Assembly (NCBI RefSeq): GCF_000380335.1
Contig: NC_021149.1
Coordinates: 1,426,001 to 1,490,000, forward strand
Length of the DNA: 64,000 bases
Reading direction: 5' to 3'
Source of the DNA: Azotobacter vinelandii CA
GTDB taxonomy: Bacteria; Pseudomonadota; Gammaproteobacteria; Pseudomonadales; Pseudomonadaceae
The notes under the pieces were generated by a model. It was not told the DNA's origin. It did not search any database and worked only from the letters and a program-made list of their open reading frames with translations. Below, piece after piece: positions 15,064 through 64,000 of the stretch. A program made the position numbers and the translations under genes. Numbering within the stretch: position 1 is the stretch's first letter; each line of letters opens with the position of its first letter.

Positions 15064-16647
<1,584 letters not shown>

Positions 16648-53536: not shown

Positions 53537-54363
53537 GGGCCTGTTAACACTACCGTAGGGCCTCAGCGATAAGAGCCACAGTGACGAAGGCGGCGTACAT
53601 GAGGTCAAGCTTGTCGTAGCGCGTGAACACGCGGCGCCAGGCCTTGAGTCGTCGAAACAGCCGCTCGATACCGTTGCGTCGGCGATAGAGCGGTTTGTCA
53701 TACTCCCACGGCTGGCGCCGCCGGGGGTTGGGTGGCACCACCGGCACGAAACCCAGGCCGCAAGCCAGCTCGCGCGTGGCATTGTCTTGGTATGCACTGT
53801 CCATCAACAGAGCCACGAGCCCGTGGTGAGGTCCCAACGCCTGAATCAAGCGCCTGCCTTCGGGGGCATCGCCAGCCTGCCCCGCCGTCAGGCTCCAGGT
53901 CACGACATTGCGATCATCCGCGGCAACCAGATGCAGTTTGGTGCTCCAGCCGCCGCGGCTGCGACCGAGGGCTTGAGGACCGTTTTTTTTCGCGCGCCCG
54001 TACCATCCGGATGCACCTTCACGATACTGGAGTCGAGGCTGATGGCCTCGATGCGTATCTGCATAAGTCGCTGGCGCTGCAACTGTTCGAAAACACGATC
54101 GAGCACGCCGGCTTTGCTCCAGCGCATCATGCGGGTGTAGACGGTGTGCCAGTTGCCATAGCGTTCGGGCAGCGCGCGCCATTTGCAGCCGTTGGCTGCC
54201 ACATACAGGATGGCGTTGAGTACTTGCAGGTTGCCCAGGCGTACATTGCCGCGTTGGCGCGGCAACAAGCCTCCGATTTGTTTGAATTGCTCGGCGGTCA
54301 GTTGCATGGCACTCGGTCTCAACACTGTTTTGCTGCATTCTAGTAAATAGAGTTAACAGACCC
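53537..54363 (-). mobile_element. IS5-family (IS427-group-like) insertion sequence, 827 bp
   Basis: Terminal inverted repeats start GGGCCTGTTAAC at the left (53537) and GGGTCTGTTAAC at the right (reading inward from 54363), with about 13 of the first 16 positions alike. A 2-bp TA duplication flanks it (53535-53536 and 54364-54365). It encodes one transposase split in two frames. Length, TA target and frameshift design fit the IS427 group of the IS5 family; group naming is from memory. Both ends are intact, so it may be active. Confidence 0.9.
53550..54307 (-). CDS. IS5-family DDE transposase (needs -1 frameshift)
   Basis: The first frame runs from ATG 54307 to 53900 (QLTAEQFKQIGGLLP, then ISLDSSIVKVH with the first catalytic Asp). 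The second frame continues to the stop at 53550-53552 and carries the second Asp (LLMDSAYQDN) and the Glu with the YREK-like region (RRRNGIERLFRRLKAW). The frames meet at a run of eight A on the coding strand (53990-53983); moving back one base there joins them into a protein of about 252 residues. The first frame alone lacks two of three catalytic residues. A GTG at 54325 is an alternative start. Confidence 0.88.
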
Positions 54364-56299: not shown

Positions 56300-56325
56300 A
56301 AAACAAGTAAGTGCACATAGTGCAC
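56300..56325. promoter_or_regulatory. MhpR-type operator upstream of mhpB
   Basis: The palindrome GTGCACATAGTGCAC (56311-56325) is preceded by AAAACAA (56300-56306) with 4 bp between. It closely resembles the E. coli MhpR site (GGTGCACCTGGTGCACA, from memory) and the second copy at 61199-61213. Its centre lies at about -61 from the predicted start site, a class I activator position. It is in a 372-bp gap (56150-56521) that otherwise holds the promoter and a leader of about 143 nt. Confidence 0.88.
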
Positions 56326-56342
56326 GGAAGGGTAGATAGCCT

Positions 56343-56372
56343 TTGAGGCTGTCGATCGCCCACTCCTAGAAT
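56343..56372 (+). promoter_or_regulatory. Sigma70 promoter of the mhpB operon
   Basis: TTGAGG (56343-56348), an 18-bp spacer, then TAGAAT (56367-56372). The 17 bp between operator and -35 equal the spacing in the mhpD promoter. A long spacer and weak -35 suit an activator-dependent promoter. Confidence 0.7.
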
Positions 56373-56521
56373 GGCCAGGCCCGAAACGAACAAAAAACAG
56401 CCAGGAAGCGGATTCGCCCACTGGCGCAACGGACCACCGCCGGCGCTGTGCATCCGCTGCGCATTCCCGACCCCTCCCGGGCGGCGGGAAGGCATTCGCA
56501 TCCGGGGCTCCAGGAGGCTCG

Positions 56522-57460
56522 ATGACCATCAAACTGAAATGCCTGTCGCATACCCCCTTGCGTGGCCTGAACGATCCGGGGGCCGATGTCGTCGCGGAAG
56601 TCGACGCGGTGCTCGCCCGGTCGCGTGCCGAGGTCGAGGCCTTCGACCCCGAACTGATCGTGATCTTCGCACCCGATCATTACAACGGCCTGTTCTACGA
56701 CCTGATGCCGCCCTTCGTGATCGCCACCGCCGCCGAGTCGGTCGCCGACTACGGAACCCTGCCGGGCCCGCTGTCGATTCCCAGGGATCTGGCGCTCGAC
56801 CTGACGCGGCACATCCTCGACAGCGGCCTCGACATCGCCCTGTCGCACCGCCTGCAGGTCGACCACGGCTGCACCCAGACCCTCGAGGAACTGACCGGCA
56901 GCCTGACCCGCTATCCGGTGATCCCGATCATCATCAACTCGGTGGCACCGCCTTTCGCTCCCTACCGGCGCATCCGCAAGCTCGGCGAGGCGGTCGGCCG
57001 CTTCGTCGCTTCGCTCGGCAAGCGCGTGCTGATCCTCGGTACCGGCGGCCTGTCCCACGAACCGCCCGTGCCGCTGCTGTCGGGTGCCGCCGAGGAAATC
57101 GCCGAGTTCCTGATCGCCGGGCGCAACCCGACCCCGGAGGCGCGCGCCGCTCGCCAGGCGCGGACCATCGCCGCCGGGAAAATCTACGGCACCGCGGAAA
57201 GTCCGCTGACCCCGCTCAACACCGACTGGGACCTGGCCTTCATCGACCTGCTGGTGCAGGGCCGCCTCGCGGAAATCGACGACTTCGTGGTCGAGGAGAT
57301 TTCCACGACCGCCGGCCGCTCGACCCACGAGATCCGGACCTGGGTCGCCGCCTTCGCCGCACTGGCGGCCGGCGGCGCCTATCGCGCCCGGCAGGACTAC
57401 TACCGGCCGATCAACGAATGGATCGCCGGCTATGGCGTGGTGAGCGCCGAACGACGCTGA
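56522..57460 (+). CDS. mhpB: 2,3-dihydroxyphenylpropionate 1,2-dioxygenase MhpB
   Basis: Class III (LigB-type) extradiol dioxygenase that opens the ring of 2,3-dihydroxyphenylpropionate or -cinnamate with Fe(II). It has 312 residues and is alike along its whole length to E. coli MhpB as I remember it (LIVIFAPDHYNGLFYDLMPPF, GKSTHEI-like GRSTHEIRTWVAAFAA, RPINEWIAGYG). The catalytic His pair is conserved: H115 (QVDHG) and H179 (LSHEPPVP). AGGAGG precedes the ATG. First gene of the operon; the ring-hydroxylating pair follows. Confidence 0.95.
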   Translation: MTIKLKCLSHTPLRGLNDPGADVVAEVDAVLARSRAEVEAFDPELIVIFAPDHYNGLFYDLMPPFVIATAAESVADYGTLPGPLSIPRDLALDLTRHILDSGLDIALSHRLQVDHGCTQTLEELTGSLTRYPVIPIIINSVAPPFAPYRRIRKLGEAVGRFVASLGKRVLILGTGGLSHEPPVPLLSGAAEEIAEFLIAGRNPTPEARAARQARTIAAGKIYGTAESPLTPLNTDWDLAFIDLLVQGRLAEIDDFVVEEISTTAGRSTHEIRTWVAAFAALAAGGAYRARQDYYRPINEWIAGYGVVSAERR

Positions 57461-57500
57461 GCCCATCGCCGGGCTGTGCATCCCCAACGAAATCGCGGAG

Positions 57501-57508
57501 AACAACAA
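57501..57508 (+). promoter_or_regulatory. Crc/Hfq-type catabolite motif at the oxygenase start
   Basis: AACAACAA (57501-57508) matches the AAnAAnAA motif bound by Hfq-Crc in pseudomonads. It fills the space between CGGAG and the ATG, overlapping its first base, so binding would block ribosome entry during growth on preferred carbon sources. Confidence 0.7.
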
Positions 57509-58701
57509 TGAACTCGATCGCTACCCCCATTCCCACCGAAACCGAACTGGTCGCCCGTGCCGAAGCCATGATCCCCTGGCTGCGCGAAAAGGCCGATGCC
57601 GTCGAGAAGGCGCGCATGGTCCCGCGCGACACCATCCAGGCGTTCCAGGAGGCCGGTTTCTTCAGGATCCTGCAGCCCCGTCGCTGGGGCGGCTATGAAA
57701 TGAACCCCAACGTGCTGAACCGGGTACTGATGGAGCTGGCCCGCGGCTGTCCGTCCAGCGCCTGGAACGTGATGGTGCTGGGCGTGCACCCCTTCGAGGT
57801 CGGCCTGCTCGACTCACGCTGCGGCGACGAACTCTGGGGCGAGGACGACAGCCGGCTGGTGTCGTCCTCCTACGCGCCCTTCGGCACGGTCACCGCGGTC
57901 GATGGCGGCTACCTGCTCGACGGCGAATGGCTGACCTCCAGCGGCTGCGACCATGCCGCCGGCGGCGCCTTCCTCGGCGGGCGCGTCGCCGAGAACGGCG
58001 AAACGGTGTTCCGCTCCTTCTGGGTCCAGGCCGGCGACTTCGAGATCGTCGACGACTGGCAGGTGGTCGGCCTGGCCGGCACCGGCAGCAAGAAGCTGGT
58101 GATCCGCGAAGTCTTCGTGCCGGCCTACCGCAGCCACGCGATCGGCGCCTACGGCCAGGACTCTCACGGCCAGGTGAACAACCTGTACAAGGTGCCGTTC
58201 TTCTACGTGTTCTACGCCGCCGTGTCCTCGGTGATCATCGGCATGGCGCGCGGTATGGTCGATCTCTACATCGAGCACATGAAGCCGCGGCAGAACATCA
58301 ACCAGGCCATCGGCGCCGCCGTTCAGGACCCCTTCATCAAGAACCGCCTCGGCGAGGCCACGGCGAAGATCCTCGCCTGCTCCAGCCGGGTGCTGCACAA
58401 CACCGAGGAAGCCTGGAGCTACGCCGCGCGCGGCGAACTGGTGCCGCTGGACGTGCGCGTCCGCCACTTCGCCACCAACCAGTTCACCGGCGGCGAGTGC
58501 TTCGAGGCGGCGCACATGATCTTCAAGAAGACCTCGACCCGCGGCATCTGGCTGAACAGTCCGCTGCAGCGGCAGATGCGCGACATCCTGGTCGGCGCCA
58601 ACCACATCACCCAGAACCAGGACAACATCGGCGACCTGCTGGGCGGCCAGTTGCTCGGCAGCCCGCTGCCGGCCGTCAACCCCTTCGGCGTCAAGGCCTG
58701 A
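57508..58701 (+). CDS. Flavin-dependent monooxygenase, oxygenase component (HsaA/HpaH-like)
   Basis: Encodes 397 residues with an acyl-CoA-dehydrogenase fold: N-terminal helical domain (RDTIQAFQEAGFFRILQPRRWGG), beta domain (SYAPFGTVTAVDGGYLLDGEWLTSSG, GTGSKKLVIREVFVP) and C-terminal helical domain (TGGECFEAAHMIFKKTSTRG). This is the group D two-component phenol hydroxylase family (HsaA for a steroid phenol, HpaH for 4-hydroxyphenylacetate), using reduced flavin from a separate reductase, encoded next. By context it should ortho-hydroxylate 3-hydroxyphenylpropionate or -cinnamate, replacing the single-component MhpA. The substrate is inference. Longer in-frame readings through mhpB are shadows. 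Confidence 0.88.
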   Translation: MNSIATPIPTETELVARAEAMIPWLREKADAVEKARMVPRDTIQAFQEAGFFRILQPRRWGGYEMNPNVLNRVLMELARGCPSSAWNVMVLGVHPFEVGLLDSRCGDELWGEDDSRLVSSSYAPFGTVTAVDGGYLLDGEWLTSSGCDHAAGGAFLGGRVAENGETVFRSFWVQAGDFEIVDDWQVVGLAGTGSKKLVIREVFVPAYRSHAIGAYGQDSHGQVNNLYKVPFFYVFYAAVSSVIIGMARGMVDLYIEHMKPRQNINQAIGAAVQDPFIKNRLGEATAKILACSSRVLHNTEEAWSYAARGELVPLDVRVRHFATNQFTGGECFEAAHMIFKKTSTRGIWLNSPLQRQMRDILVGANHITQNQDNIGDLLGGQLLGSPLPAVNPFGVKA

Positions 58702-58773
58702 GCCGAGCCGTCGGCGAGGTCCGGCGCTTCGTCGGGCCTCTTCCCATCAGCCCGCTGTGCGAGAGCGAATGTC

Positions 58774-59325
58774 ATGAGCAAAGAGATCAATCAACTGCTG
58801 GACTGGGTTCCGAACGCCGAACTGGCCGGATTGCCACTGGTCAGCGCCGACGAGCACCGTTACGGCATGCGCAACCTGGCCGCCGCCGTCACCCTCGTCA
58901 CCACCCGCGACGGCGACGTCCGCCTCGGCCTCACCGCCACCGCGGTCTGCTCGGTGACCGCCGATCCGCCGCGCCTGGTGGTGTTCGTCAACAAGAAGGT
59001 CGCCGCCTGCGAGGCGATCCGCAACAGCGGCGCCCTCTGCATCAACGTACTGTCCGGCGGGCAGGAGCACGAGGCGAAGGTGTTCGCCGGCATGCTCGAG
59101 GGTGTGCATGGCGAGGCACGCTTCGAGCATGGCCAGTGGCGCGAACTGATCACCGGCGCGCCGGTACTGGAGGATTCGCTGGCCAACTTCGACTGCCGGG
59201 TGGTCAAGGTCTTCGACGAGAGCACCCATCACGCCTTTCTCTGCGAGGTGCTGGCCAGCCGTGGCCGGCAGGGCGGCGAACCGCTCCTGTACCTGAACGG
59301 CGCCTTCCGCCGCCTCGCCCCCTGA
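58774..59325 (+). CDS. Flavin reductase component (HsaB/HpaC-like)
   Basis: Encodes 183 residues of the flavin reductase-like family: FRxAMR-like [62 protein letters not shown], and [16 protein letters not shown] with the C-terminal FLCEVL. It supplies reduced FMN or FAD from NAD(P)H to the oxygenase encoded just upstream. Gap to the oxygenase is 72 bp, to mhpC 19 bp. Confidence 0.9.
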
Positions 59326-59344
59326 TCCGACCGGAGAACACAGG

Positions 59345-60211
59345 ATGACTACCGCACAGACCCTTAGCGAAGCCGCCACCAGCCGCTTCGTCTGCATCGA
59401 AGAGGGCGATCTCGCCCTGCAACTGCACTACAACGACTGCGGCGCGGGCGCTGAAACCCTGGTCATGCTGCATGGCTCCGGACCGGGCGCCAGCGGCTGG
59501 GCCAACTTCAACCGCAACGTCGAACCCATGGTCGCCGCCGGCTACCGGGTGATCCTGATGGACTGTCCGGGCTGGAGCAAGAGCGATCCCATCGTCTGCA
59601 CCGGCTCGCGCTCGGACCTCAACGCCCGCGCGCTGAAGGGCCTGCTCGATGCCATCGGCATCGACCGCGCGCACCTCATCGGCAACTCCATGGGCGGCCA
59701 CAGCGCCGTGGCCTTCGCCCTGGCCAACCCCGAACGGGTCGGCAAGCTGGTGCTGATGGGCGGCGGCACCGGCGGCGCCAGTCCCTTCGCGCCGATGCCG
59801 ACCGAAGGCATCAAGCTGCTGCAGGGGCTCTACCGCGAGCCGACCATCGACAACCTGAAGAAGATGATGAACGTCTTCGTCTACGACACCGGCGATCTGA
59901 CCGAGGAACTGTTCCAGACCCGCCTCGACAACATGCTGAGCCGCCGCGACCACCTGGAGAACTTCGTCGAGAGCCTGGCGGCCAACCCGAAGCAGTTCCC
60001 CGACTTCGGCCTGCGGCTGGCCGAGATCAAGGCACAGACCCTGATCGTCTGGGGCAGCAACGACCGCTTCGTACCCATGGACACCGGCCTGCGCCTGCTC
60101 GCCGGCCTGCCCAATGCGGAACTGCATGTGTTCAACCGCTGCGGCCACTGGGCGCAGTGGGAGCATGCGGATCGGTTCAACCGCTTGGTGCTGGACTTCC
60201 TCCGCCATTGA
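59345..60211 (+). CDS. mhpC: 2-hydroxy-6-oxonona-2,4-dienedioate hydrolase MhpC
   Basis: Alpha/beta hydrolase that cleaves the meta-ring-fission product to 2-hydroxypenta-2,4-dienoate and succinate or fumarate. It has 288 residues, the E. coli length. [13 protein letters not shown] oxyanion region, nucleophile Ser in GNSMGGHSA (about residue 116), Asp in WGSNDRFVP and His in [10 protein letters not shown]. Last gene of the first operon; a palindromic repeat follows before the convergent mhpR. Confidence 0.95.
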
Positions 60212-60239
60212 TCCCCAGCCCGCCAGCGGGGCGCCGCCC

Positions 60240-60318
60240 GTAGGGTGGAAAACCGCACAGCGTTTTCCACCAGTTGCCGCCGCTGGTCACGGTGGATGGC
60301 TGCGGCCATCCACCCTAC
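60240..60318. repeat. REP/BIME-like palindromic repeat between mhpC and mhpR
   Basis: An outer perfect 9-bp inverted repeat, GTAGGGTGG (60240-60248) and CCACCCTAC (60310-60318), encloses two hairpins: TGGAAAAC/GTTTTCCA (about 60246-60269) and GGTGGATGG/CCATCCACC (60291-60299 with 60306-60314). This resembles dispersed REP-type elements of pseudomonads. It lies between convergent genes and could also end or stabilise both transcripts. Confidence 0.7.
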
Positions 60319-60347
60319 ACGGCTGGCTTACCGGGCCCGGCGTGCAT

Positions 60348-61169
60348 TCAGTTGCCCGTCAGCGCCGGTCCGGCCTGTTCGCGCTCGTGGATGCCCTGTT
60401 CGACGGTGGCCGCGAAGCGTTGCAGGGCCGGCAGGTAGCGTTTCGCGGCCTGCTCGATGGTCATCGCCTTGGCCACGTAGATCAGACTGATACAGCCGTA
60501 GACCCGCTGCTCGCCACGGATCGGCACGGCGATGGCGGCGATCCTTTCCTCGCTGTTCCAACTGCCGTAGTTCTCGCCGTAACCGCGGTGGCGCGTGCGT
60601 CGCAGCAGGTTGTCCAGGCCCGCACGGTCGCGCGCCAGGCGGCCTTCCTCGTCGTCGCGGCTGGCCAGGAGTTCGACGATGCGCTCGCGTTCGGCGTCCG
60701 GGCAGAAGGCGAGATAGGCGAGGCCGGTGGCGGTGAGCGGTATCGGCATGCGCCGGCCGACCATCGAACGATGGAACGACAGCCGGCTGAAGCGGTGGGT
60801 GGTCTCGCGCACCACCATGGCGTCCACGTCCAGGGTGCACAGGTCGGTCGGCCAGACCACCTCCTGCAGCAACTCGGCCAGCAGCGGCGCGGCCAGCGCG
60901 GAAATCCACTGCTCGTCGCGAAAGCCCTCGCTCAGCTCGCGCACCTTCATGCTCAGGCGGAAGCTGTCGTCCGACTCGCTGCGTCGCACATAGCCTTCGT
61001 CCTGCAACGTCTCCAGCAGGCGGCGCACCGTGGTGCGGTGCAGTCCGGTCAGCTCGGCCAGCTTCGTCGGGCTGGCGCCGCCATCCACCCGGTTGAGGGC
61101 GTTGAGGATCTGCAGGCCGCGGCTCAGGCCACGCACGGTCTTGTATTCGGTATCGTGTTCGCTGCTCAT
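60348..61169 (-). CDS. mhpR: IclR-family activator MhpR
   Basis: Transcriptional activator of the mhp genes that responds to the hydroxyphenylpropionate. It has 273 residues: winged helix-turn-helix (about 10-75, VRGLSRGLQILNALN, SGLHRTTVRRLLETLQDEGYVRRS with T for S) and IclR ligand domain. Very like E. coli MhpR from memory (LDVDAMVVRETTHRFSRLSFHR, MTIEQAAKRYLPALQR). It starts 30 bp from the operator at 61199-61213, so it may regulate itself. It sits between the two mhp operons, convergent to mhpC and divergent from mhpD. Confidence 0.95.
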   Translation of the reverse strand: MSSEHDTEYKTVRGLSRGLQILNALNRVDGGASPTKLAELTGLHRTTVRRLLETLQDEGYVRRSESDDSFRLSMKVRELSEGFRDEQWISALAAPLLAELLQEVVWPTDLCTLDVDAMVVRETTHRFSRLSFHRSMVGRRMPIPLTATGLAYLAFCPDAERERIVELLASRDDEEGRLARDRAGLDNLLRRTRHRGYGENYGSWNSEERIAAIAVPIRGEQRVYGCISLIYVAKAMTIEQAAKRYLPALQRFAATVEQGIHEREQAGPALTGN

Positions 61170-61187
61170 GTCTGCAAAAGCCTTTTT

Positions 61188-61213
61188 AAAACAATGTTGT
61201 GCACTTAGTGCAC
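61188..61213. promoter_or_regulatory. MhpR-type operator between mhpR and mhpD
   Basis: GTGCACTTAGTGCAC (61199-61213), preceded by AAAACAA (61188-61194) with 4 bp between; this arrangement is the same as at 56300-56325. Centre at about -61 from the predicted mhpD start site and 37 bp upstream of the mhpR start codon. Confidence 0.88.
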
Positions 61214-61230
61214 ATGGGTCCGGTTTTTCA

Positions 61231-61260
61231 TTGTAGGGGTTTCAGGGGCATTCCTATACT
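61231..61260 (+). promoter_or_regulatory. Sigma70 promoter of the mhpD operon
   Basis: TTGTAG (61231-61236), an 18-bp spacer, then TATACT (61255-61260). Operator-to--35 distance is 17 bp, exactly as for mhpB. Confidence 0.7.
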
Positions 61261-61290: not shown

Positions 61291-61377
61291 ATGAGCCAAA
61301 GCGTGCATCCCGCCAGCCTCTGGAACGGCATCGCCGGCTTCGGCTCATCGGCCCGCAACCTGCGAGGTAGTCCATGA
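61291..61377 (+). CDS. Possible 28-residue leader peptide coupled to mhpD
   Basis: ATG 61291 opens a 28-codon frame ([18 protein letters not shown]...) whose TGA stop (61375-61377) overlaps the mhpD ATG as ATGA. The start is immediately preceded and overlapped by AACAACAA (61284-61291), a Crc/Hfq-type motif, and has only a weak Shine-Dalgarno. No similarity is recognised. mhpD also has a GAGGT of its own, so translation of the leader is not proven. Confidence 0.4.
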
Positions 61378-62168
61378 GCGTGACTCAACAGACCCTGGAA
61401 CAACTGGCCGCCGCCCTGCGCGGGGCCGAGGCGAACGGGACGGCCATCGAACCGCTGCGCGGAGCGATCGGCGAGGATAACGGTACGGCCGCCTACGCCA
61501 TCCAGCGCCTCAACGTTGCCCATGCCGTGGCCGCCGGGCGTCGCGTGGTCGGTCGCAAGATCGGCCTGACCAACCCCAAGGTGCAGCGGCAGCTCGGCGT
61601 CGACCAGCCGGACTTCGGCACCCTGTTCGCCGACATGAGCCATGGCGACAACGAGGTGCTGTCTATCAAACGCGTGTTACAGCCGAAGATCGAGGCGGAG
61701 ATCGCCCTGATCCTCGAACGCGACCTGCCGCGCGCCGACACCACCTTCGCCGAGCTGGCCGAGGCCACCGGCTGGGTGCTGCCGGCGCTGGAGATCGTCG
61801 GTTCGCGGGTTCGGGACTGGAACATCCGCTTCGTCGACACCGTGGCCGACAACGCCTCCAGCGGCTGCTTCGTGCTCGGTGGGCCGGTACGCCGGCTGGC
61901 CGGCGTCGACCTGCGCCGGGCGGCGATGCGCATGACCCGCAACGGCGAGGAAGTTTCCAGCGGCAGCGGCGCCGAGTGTCTCGGCCATCCGCTGAATGCC
62001 GCGGTGTGGCTGGCGCGCACCATGGCCGGCCTGGGCGAGCCGCTCAAGGCCGGCGACCTGATCCTCACCGGCGCCCTCGGGCCGATGGTGGGCGTGGCCG
62101 CCGGCGACCGTTTCGAGGCCGAGATCGAAGGCATCGGTCAGGTCGGCGTCGAATTCGGCGCCGCATGA
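61374..62168 (+). CDS. mhpD: 2-hydroxypenta-2,4-dienoate hydratase MhpD
   Basis: Adds water to 2-hydroxypentadienoate to give 4-hydroxy-2-oxovalerate. It has 264 residues. Motifs are [30 protein letters not shown], the metal-binding acids in [10 protein letters not shown] (E-x-E) and PALEIVGSR, and [19 protein letters not shown] precedes the ATG at 61374. First full gene of the second operon, followed by mhpF after 36 bp. Confidence 0.95.
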
Positions 62169-62204: not shown

Positions 62205-63140
62205 ATGAAAAAACTCAAAGTCGCCATCGTCGGCTCCGGCAACATCGGCACCGACCTGATGATCAAGATCCTGCGCCACGGCCAGCACCTGGAAATGGGC
62301 GCCCTGGTCGGCATCGACCCGGATTCCGACGGCCTGGCCCGCGCCGCGCGCCTCGGCGTGGCCACCACCGCCGAGGGCGTCGAGGGCCTGGCCCGCCTGC
62401 CGGGGTTCGGCGAGATCGATTTCGTCTTCGACGCCACCTCGGCCGCCGCCCACGTGAAGAACGACCCGTTCCTGCGCGGCCTCAGGCCCGGCCTGCGGCT
62501 GATCGACCTGACCCCGGCGGCCGTCGGCCCCTACTGCGTGCCGGTGGTGAATCTCGAGCAGAACCTGCGCGAACCCAACGTCAACATGGTCACCTGCGGC
62601 GGCCAGGCGACCATCCCCATGGTCGCCGCGGTGTCGCGGGTGGCCAGGGTCCACTACGCCGAGATCGTCGCCTCGATCGCCAGCCGGTCGGCCGGCCCCG
62701 GCACCCGCGCCAACATCGACGAATTCACCGAGACCACCTCGAAAGCCATCGAGGCGATCGGCGGGGCGCGCAAGGGCAAGGCGATCATCGTCCTCAACCC
62801 GGCCGAGCCGCCGCTGATCATGCGCGACACCGTCTACGTGCTCTCCGCGCCGGCCGACCAGGCCCGGGTCGAGGCCTCCCTCGCGGAAATGGCCCAGGCG
62901 GTACAGGGCTACGTGCCGGGCTATCGCCTCAAGCAGCGGGTGCAGTTCGACGAGATCCCCGACGCCGCGCCGCTGAACATCCCCGGCCTCGGCCGCCTGT
63001 CCGGCCTGAAGACCTCGGTGTTCCTCGAGGTCGAGGGCGCCGCCCATTACCTGCCGGCCTACGCCGGCAACCTGGACATCATGACCTCCGCCGCGCTGGC
63101 TACCGCCGAGCGCATGGCGCAATCCATGCTGAACGCCTGA
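62205..63140 (+). CDS. mhpF: Acetaldehyde dehydrogenase (acylating) MhpF
   Basis: Converts acetaldehyde, channelled from MhpE, to acetyl-CoA with NAD+ and CoA. It has 311 residues. The NAD site is [16 protein letters not shown] at the N-terminus; the catalytic Cys is in [16 protein letters not shown] (about residue 132). DmpF/MhpF type throughout. GGAGAG precedes the ATG. mhpE starts 10 bp after its stop, in keeping with the enzymes forming a channelling complex. Confidence 0.96.
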
Positions 63141-63150
63141 GGACGCCGCC

Positions 63151-64000
63151 ATGACCTTCAACCCCGGCAAGAAGCTGTACATCTCCGACGTGACCCTGCG
63201 CGACGGCAGCCACGCGATCCGCCACCAGTACTCGATCGCCAACGTGCAGGCCATCGCCCGCGCGCTGGACCAGGCGAAAGTCGACTCCATCGAGGTCGCC
63301 CACGGCGACGGCCTGCAGGGTTCGAGCTTCAACTACGGCTTCGGCGCCCACACCGACCTGGAATGGATCGAGGCGGTGGCCGAGGTGGTGACTCATGCCA
63401 GGATCGCCACCCTGCTGCTGCCCGGCATCGGCACCGTCCACCACCTCAAGGAGGCTTACGAGGCCGGCGCGCGCATCGTCCGGGTGGCCACCCACTGCAC
63501 CGAGGCGGACGTGTCCAGACAGCACATCGCCTACGCGCGCGAGTTGGGCATGGACACCGTGGGCTTCCTGATGATGAGCCACATGACCACGCCGCAGAAC
63601 CTCGCCGTCGAGGCGAAGAAGATGGAAAGCTACGGCGCCACCTGCATCTACGTGGTCGACTCCGGCGGGGCCTTGAGCATGCAGGACGTGCGCGAGCGCT
63701 TCCGCGCGGTCAAGGACCTGCTGGAGCCTTCGACCCAGACCGGCATCCACGCCCACCACAACCTCAGCCTCGGGGTGGCCAACTCCATCGTCGCGGTGGA
63801 GGAGGGCTGCGACCGCATCGACGCCAGCCTGGCCGGCATGGGCGCGGGGGCGGGCAATGCGCCGCTGGAGGTGTTCGTCGCCGCGGCCGAGCGGCTGGGC
63901 TGGAACCACGGCACCGACCTCTACACCCTGATGGACGCCGCCGACGAGATCGTCCGGCCGTTGCAGGACCGCCCGGTACGGGTCGACCGCGAGACGCTGG
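63151..64000 (+). CDS. mhpE: 4-hydroxy-2-oxovalerate aldolase MhpE (3' end outside window)
   Basis: Splits 4-hydroxy-2-oxovalerate into pyruvate and acetaldehyde. The frame is open from ATG 63151 to the window end, about 283 of some 340 residues. Class II HMGL-like aldolase: [20 protein letters not shown] with the metal Asp and catalytic Arg and His, [11 protein letters not shown], and the metal His pair in [14 protein letters not shown]. It follows mhpF closely and partners it. The C-terminal dimerisation part is missing only because the window ends. Confidence 0.95.

Follow-up and report, generated by a model that had tools for sequence, protein, structure and literature searches.

Introduction

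The closest described counterpart of the locus studied here is the mhp system of Escherichia coli, in which the run mhpABCDFE stands behind one operator of the regulator MhpR. The MhpR consensus is the 17-bp palindrome GGTGCACCTGGTGCACA (Table 1 of PMC8222616). Azotobacter vinelandii uses phenylpropionate, and its strain DJ carries a phenylpropionate cluster listed as mhpB, ORF1,2, mhpCRDFET (PMC4465626). Here, we describe the mhp cluster in a 64,000-nucleotide stretch of A. vinelandii CA (contig NC_021149.1, positions 1,426,001–1,490,000; the window), where two predicted MhpR operators precede mhpB and mhpD, respectively, and the E. coli-type run behind a single operator is not seen.

Two predicted operators and their promoters

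The two units of upstream word and palindrome, AAAACAAGTAAGTGCACATAGTGCAC (56300–56325) and AAAACAATGTTGTGCACTTAGTGCAC (61188–61213), lie on the plus strand. Within them, predicted operator 1, GTGCACATAGTGCAC (56311–56325), stands before mhpB and has the same half-sites as the E. coli site, and predicted operator 2, GTGCACTTAGTGCAC (61199–61213), lies between the divergent mhpR and mhpD; 4 bp upstream of the palindrome is the word AAAACAA (56300–56306 in the mhpB module, 61188–61194 in the mhpD module), which we propose as a third operator box. Plus-strand promoters are predicted downstream at 56343–56372 (mhpB) and 61231–61260 (mhpD): the −35 hexamers TTGAGG (56343–56348) and TTGTAG (61231–61236) each follow 17 bp after their palindrome, and the −10 hexamers TAGAAT (56367–56372) and TATACT (61255–61260) follow after spacers of 18 bp. 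With transcription assumed to begin some 7 bp beyond the −10 (near 56379 and 61267), both operators are centred at about −61 of their predicted promoters; MhpR operators have their centre near −58 of a sigma-70 promoter. The sites and this geometry agree with the original prediction, made from the window alone, which had also called the two modules identical; the register is indeed common to both, whereas their sequences agree at only 68 of 130 positions (ungapped), one spacer base distinguishes the operators, and both hexamers differ. In a consensus promoter scan, the mhpB promoter alone is over the threshold (one promoter found, where shuffles give an expectation of 0.5).

In the genome, a single 5.37-Mb contig, exact GTGCACN3GTGCAC is present at two places, both in the window, and its reversed control at none. 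Allowing up to three mismatches in the window only yields four strand-hits, a number equalled in 15 of 100 shuffles and hence unremarkable, and allowing two mismatches in the whole genome yields 18 strand-hits versus 5 in the control, so that weak matches are largely noise. A plasmid search with the mhpB module gave no match.

The product of mhpR (60348–61169, minus strand), which lies between the two sites as had been predicted, carries an IclR helix-turn-helix domain (PF09339) and a C-terminal effector domain (PF01614). It passes model NF007341 (369.3 bits, cut-off 269), with the sister models NF007339 and NF007342 below their cut-offs; PRK09834, the source of NF007341-type models (PRK09834.1-3), we take to be MhpR. 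The protein and E. coli MhpR share 68% identity, with the stretch LHRTTVRRLLETLQ unchanged between them (N-termini compared); across three genomes of the same genus, A. chroococcum and A. beijerinckii among them, MhpR identity is 94–95%. The mhpR–mhpA interval of E. coli MG1655 contains GTGCACCTGGTGCAC, with the same half-sites as in the window, and the 10-kb E. coli mhp stretch, to which this search was limited, holds one such site, in line with the one operon and one site ascribed to E. coli beforehand; the E. coli site cited in the original prediction also matches the consensus of PMC8222616. Given that the exact palindrome occurs nowhere else in the genome, that regulator and E. coli MhpR agree at 68% of positions, and that the E. 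coli site is alike, the MhpR reading of regulator and operators is very likely right.

A terminator scan flags both palindromes on the minus strand, as a stem followed by a T-rich run, and the palindrome might then be an RNA hairpin or terminator and no protein site. However, the stem is 6–7 bp long with a gap ahead of the T-rich run, the five terminator-like hits are close to the 3.0 expected in shuffles, and the primary sequence of the palindrome is kept from E. coli to Xanthobacter; hence, the hairpin reading was rejected, and we give it almost no credence.

Conservation of the split layout

Conservation was assessed in 84 loci, comprising the best 80 of 108 MhpR matches and L017, L128, L129, and L130, where L017 is the 20-kb stretch around the A. 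vinelandii cluster, reaching past the window. Sixteen loci were classed as two-component hydroxylase type and 67 as mhpA type; L116, with neither hydroxylase type nor an operator in its locus, was left out of both. Operators were counted with up to one mismatch and up to 700 bp from the queried gene. Hydroxylase-type clusters have an operator before mhpB in 16/16 cases and before mhpD in 14/16, and mhpA-type clusters before mhpA in 66/67 and before mhpD in 0/67; these loci are related by ancestry, so the contrast of 14/16 with 0/67 does not rest on events that are independent of one another. The two-operator version of the known MhpR regulon is real and conserved.

For positional counts, modules were picked with up to one operator mismatch, giving 96 modules (66 mhpA, 16 mhpB, and 14 mhpD) with a 45-bp flank; the farther of the two mhpB operators of L114 was omitted. 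The hexamer 17 bp past the palindrome starts with TTG or TTT in 94 of them. Two observations count against the two-operator reading: two of the 16 hydroxylase-type clusters, L123 and L129, have no mhpD operator (mhpB to mhpD form a single uninterrupted run there), and the distance between the −35 and the best −10 is not constant, being 18 bp in 13/14 mhpD modules, 17 bp in nine and 18 bp in seven mhpB modules, and 15 to 18 bp in mhpA modules.

In a second draw of 398 family genomes, whose organisms are partly shared with the 84-locus panel, we searched the extended pattern WAAWCARN4GTGCAYN3GTGCAC, in which Y at letter six of the half-site was set so as to admit the orphan third site described below. 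It is found at 31 places in 21 genomes (reversed control 0), 30 of these places within 1.5 kb of mhp genes. The oxygenase of the two-component hydroxylase is present at 82% identity or more in 13 of the 398 genomes, and the sites in these agree with the panel: nine of the 13 show two or three extended sites each, while in G003 and G012 a single extended site is accompanied by another with a mismatch. A single site is seen in G011 (L129) and no site in G029 (Azomonas, without the word). The remaining nine family genomes with an extended site have one each, beside mhpA. A 398-genome draw from the phylum gave three oxygenase matches (E ≤ 1e-120). In whole genomes, the exact palindrome is present at two places in Marinobacterium, three in Oceanospirillum, and two in Zobellella, spaced as they are in the mhp loci.

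Together, these data make it highly probable that the cluster is an MhpR regulon with two operators, at which MhpR activates the mhpB and mhpD promoters, as the original prediction of two operator-bearing promoters implied. From the sequence, we infer binding, activation, inducer, and operon extents as follows: MhpR, an activator of the IclR family, would bind GTGCACN3GTGCAC centred at about −61 before both mhpB and mhpD and, with an inducer of the 3-hydroxyphenylpropionate (3HPP) type, recruit RNA polymerase to both promoters. Operator 1 would then switch on the upper segment (mhpB, the two-component hydroxylase, and mhpC), and operator 2 the lower segment, which consists of mhpD-F-E and probably also includes mhpT and the porin gene. 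With two operators, upper and lower segments would be co-induced although the convergent mhpR breaks the run.

Quick trees, with several long branches, place the MhpB proteins of the 16 hydroxylase-type loci on one side of a branch, while the MhpRs of the same loci are not one clade (p-AU 0.0107, approximately unbiased, AU, test), the best tree requiring five changes, two of them forced by well-supported branches. For the same trait, the trees of MhpC and MhpD, given without an AU test, require seven (three forced) and four changes (two forced), respectively. Since the MhpB tree is unified while those of MhpR, MhpC, and MhpD need several changes, the upper cassette and the rest of the cluster have probably recombined more than once.

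Additional copies of the palindrome are also seen before other genes. At least four of the 67 mhpA-type loci (L065, L124, L066, and L073) have two sites, none of them before mhpD; in L124, the second site precedes an alpha/beta hydrolase gene. In Zobellella, a second palindrome (L066, 3120–3134; L073, 3212–3226, with one mismatch) lies about 85–160 bp upstream of a gene for a transporter, located 3′ of mhpE and assigned to the MFS by Pfam in L066; that gene was not a query, and these sites are outside the 84-locus operator count. In Oceanospirillum L114, mhpB is divergent from a gene for a DctP-type solute-binding protein, and the two palindromes between them (15100–15114 and 15187–15201) may serve one gene each. 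Addition of operator copies seems to be a route by which the regulon gains a unit.

Control of mhpR

Operator 2 is 29 bp from the mhpR start, and the E. coli operator is 33 bp from mhpR. The heptamer CATTGTAG (61230–61236) spans the mhpD −35 and reads CTACAAT on the minus strand, a possible mhpR −10. At that place, ATTGTA is found in 36/63 mhpA modules with mhpR within 60 bp and in merely 4/9 such mhpD modules, so that the feature is not general. In L050–L054, where mhpR is elsewhere, the minus strand reads CGACAAT in four loci and CGACAAC in one, which may represent decay of the mhpR −10.

The original prediction had mhpR probably self-controlled from the second site. Taken further, operator 2 might serve mhpR autoregulation, with mhpD-F-E expressed by transcription continuing from mhpB, and with an mhpD promoter that is incidental; the 29-bp distance and the candidate −10 are in favour of this. 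However, 5/14 mhpD operators (L050–L054) have no adjacent mhpR, which is beside mhpB in these loci, and yet both the operator and a promoter, TTGTCG-18-TATACT, are found before mhpD; the site thus probably serves mhpD and is not simply mhpR's own. In the window, moreover, the convergent mhpR and a structured repeat separate mhpC from mhpD, and in E. coli, with a similar layout, the mhpR promoter is constitutive in a reporter assay with or without phenylpropionate or 3HPP (PMC11237407). Given this E. coli result, self-control of mhpR may occur but lacks support, and the autoregulation and read-through explanation appears improbable.

A word upstream of the palindrome

Of the 96 modules, 81, E. 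coli among them (mhpA 62/66, mhpB 10/16, mhpD 9/14), have the word WAAWCAR at a distance of exactly 4 bp upstream of the palindrome; at other offsets of the flank, it is found at 1/3552 places (1/2442, 0/592, and 0/518, respectively). In a thinned set, it is present in 27/41 modules, compared with a mean of 0.06 and a maximum of 2 in shuffled flanks. Roughly one turn of the helix separates the word from the first half-site. In those 81 modules, the palindrome is hence accompanied by an external element whose distance from it is constant, as in three-box operators. In published three-box IclR operators, one pair of boxes fits TGRAACA-N1-2-TGTTYCA, and PcaU needs the third box (PMC8222616).

By this analogy, there is roughly an even chance that MhpR contacts WAAWCAR as a third half-site, in the manner of PcaU-type operators. 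Several facts tell against it. TAAAACA agrees with TGRAACA in 6/7 letters, and TAAATCA, a form common in mhpA modules, in 5/7; the gap to the neighbouring box is 3 bp, versus 1–2 bp in the published operators. By a looser criterion, eight loci have no module with the word (Azomonas, three Marinobacterium, Oceanospirillum, Xanthobacter, Lampropedia, and L124), and its mirrored form downstream of the palindrome is found in 0/96 modules, which also rules out a symmetric extension of the operator. Word and Arg71 of MhpR are both present in 73 cases and both absent in six, with two and one mixed, and six of the eight wordless loci also differ at Arg71; the link comprises two independent pairs on well-supported branches, in a column picked after scanning all, too few to count as evidence.

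The A-rich word might alternatively be a site resembling an UP element or a site of another factor (alpha-CTD, IHF, or Crp/Vfr) and not an MhpR box, which would leave the MhpR operators unaffected; we rate this somewhat below even. The word is A/T-rich, the flank beyond it is partly kept in mhpB and mhpD modules, and E. coli mhp is also under cAMP-CRP control. On the other hand, the word keeps its distance from the palindrome to the exact base, although the distance from operator to gene in mhpA clusters ranges from 80 to 419 bp, and at the mhpB site of Azomonas, GTGCATTGAGTACACAATGTGCATTAGGTGCAC, a GTACAC half-site takes the place where the word would stand. That Azomonas promoter (L083, 20115–20147) contains four GTGCAC-like boxes with a 9-bp period.

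The word was also considered as a part of mhpR's own promoter, which is ruled out by modules that carry it without an adjacent mhpR: it is found in 9/14 such hydroxylase-type modules (four Azotobacter mhpB and five L050–L054 mhpD), the other five being from loci wordless beside mhpR too, and in 2/3 such mhpA-type modules (L065 and L112, with L078 lacking it).

An orphan third module

A third module, AAAACAATGAGGTGCATGTAGTGCAC, is located at genome positions 2896989–2897014, minus strand (L158, 9989–10014). Beyond the two window sites, it is the only genome site with fewer than three mismatches to word plus palindrome, the control giving one hit at up to three. It continues with GGATAGTT...TAGAATGGCC, as in mhpB promoters, and runs into a 5′-truncated open reading frame of an HlyD-type membrane fusion (efflux-type) protein, with a DDE-type transposase fragment on its other side; the module reads as a relic. 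In gapped alignment, it has 95 letters in common with the mhpB module of P. oryzagri (L054) and 80 with the window's own, the latter hardly better than the 79 reached by some mhpA modules. This hints, at most, at a separate origin. Three other Azotobacter genomes showed no third site at one mismatch.

Gene content of the cluster

The upper segment is encoded on the plus strand. The first gene, mhpB (56522–57460), encodes 3-carboxyethylcatechol 2,3-dioxygenase (NF009908, 559.2 bits, cut-off 467; tblastn panel), whose identity to the MhpB proteins encoded in mhpA-type clusters of that panel is about 50%. It is followed by a gene for the HsaA/HPAH-C2-like oxygenase of a two-component flavin-dependent hydroxylase (57508–58701; NF045629, 313.7 bits, below the cut-off of 450), with PDB matches 2rfq, 3afe, and 2jbr, of which 2rfq and 3afe are the nearest solved structures; by a gene for a flavin reductase, its presumed partner (58774–59325; PF01613, E 6.1e-36); and by mhpC for an MhpC-like C–C hydrolase (59345–60211; PF00561), which in tblastn shares 72% identity with mhpC of E. 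coli and whose top NCBIfam match is BphD, under its cut-off.

Between the convergent mhpC and mhpR, a dispersed palindromic repeat, GTAGGGTGGAAAACCGC..., was identified at 60236–60320 by repeat search and RNA folding; its first hairpin is found at 15 genome places (up to two mismatches), and the fold of 60209–60350 has a z of −3.03. The repeat is possibly a separator or terminator.

The lower segment, also on the plus strand, comprises mhpD (61374–62168; 2-keto-4-pentenoate hydratase, NF008461, 489.7 bits, cut-off 350), mhpF (62205–63140; acylating acetaldehyde dehydrogenase, TIGR03215, 466.5 bits, cut-off 282.25), and mhpE (63151–64000, continuing past the window; 4-hydroxy-2-oxovalerate aldolase, TIGR03217, 479.4 bits over the portion inside the window). 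Beyond the window, L017 shows an MhpT-like transporter gene and then a porin-like gene 3′ of mhpE. No match to mhpA was found within the 20 kb of L017, the rest of the genome not being searched for it. Upstream of the cluster, a DDE_Tnp_1-type transposase gene (PF01609) is at 53550–54338 on the minus strand.

Comparison with known systems

An initial guess has become a testable regulon, and a regulatory layout, the operator before mhpD, is tied to an enzyme change, the two-component hydroxylase replacing MhpA. Beyond the original prediction are this exchange of mhpA for a two-component hydroxylase, the conservation of the layout with two sites, and the orphan module elsewhere in the genome. 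We advance with some doubt, as the less probable case, a broader scenario: that three-box operators WAAWCAR-N4-GTGCACN3GTGCAC are general, in E. coli too; that an mhpB–oxygenase–reductase cassette entered mhp clusters more than once with its own operator; that the split regulon accompanies the hydroxylase change; and that the orphan is a scar of another entry. The word lies outside the 17-bp MhpR palindrome of PMC8222616 and is position-locked to it in most loci examined, E. coli included. A third operator box is plausible, possibly a DNA element unrecognised so far; if it matters, promoter parts built from the palindrome only would be incomplete. In the literature searched, with most subscription papers outside its coverage, no description of the two-operator layout or of the third box was found.

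Compared with the A. vinelandii DJ cluster, the gene content and order in the window are the same; PMC4465626, in its accessible part, gives a gene list without operators or promoters. The PcaU and PobR three-box operators are similar in having a palindrome and an external box on one side, while the element here is WAAWCAR, no copy of the GTGCAC half-site, with the wider gap noted above.

The closest likeness is to the E. coli MhpR–mhp system, which has an MhpR-type regulator, GTGCACN3GTGCAC with 17 bp between it and the −35, an operator-bearing promoter from which mhpR diverges, and an AAAACAA word 4 bp upstream. In contrast, the window has two operators, mhpR between mhpC and mhpD, an HsaA-like hydroxylase with a flavin reductase and no mhpA in L017, and promoter spacers of 18 bp compared with 16 bp in E. 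coli by our own count. The two-operator layout is thus a modest, conserved variation on the well-known E. coli system.

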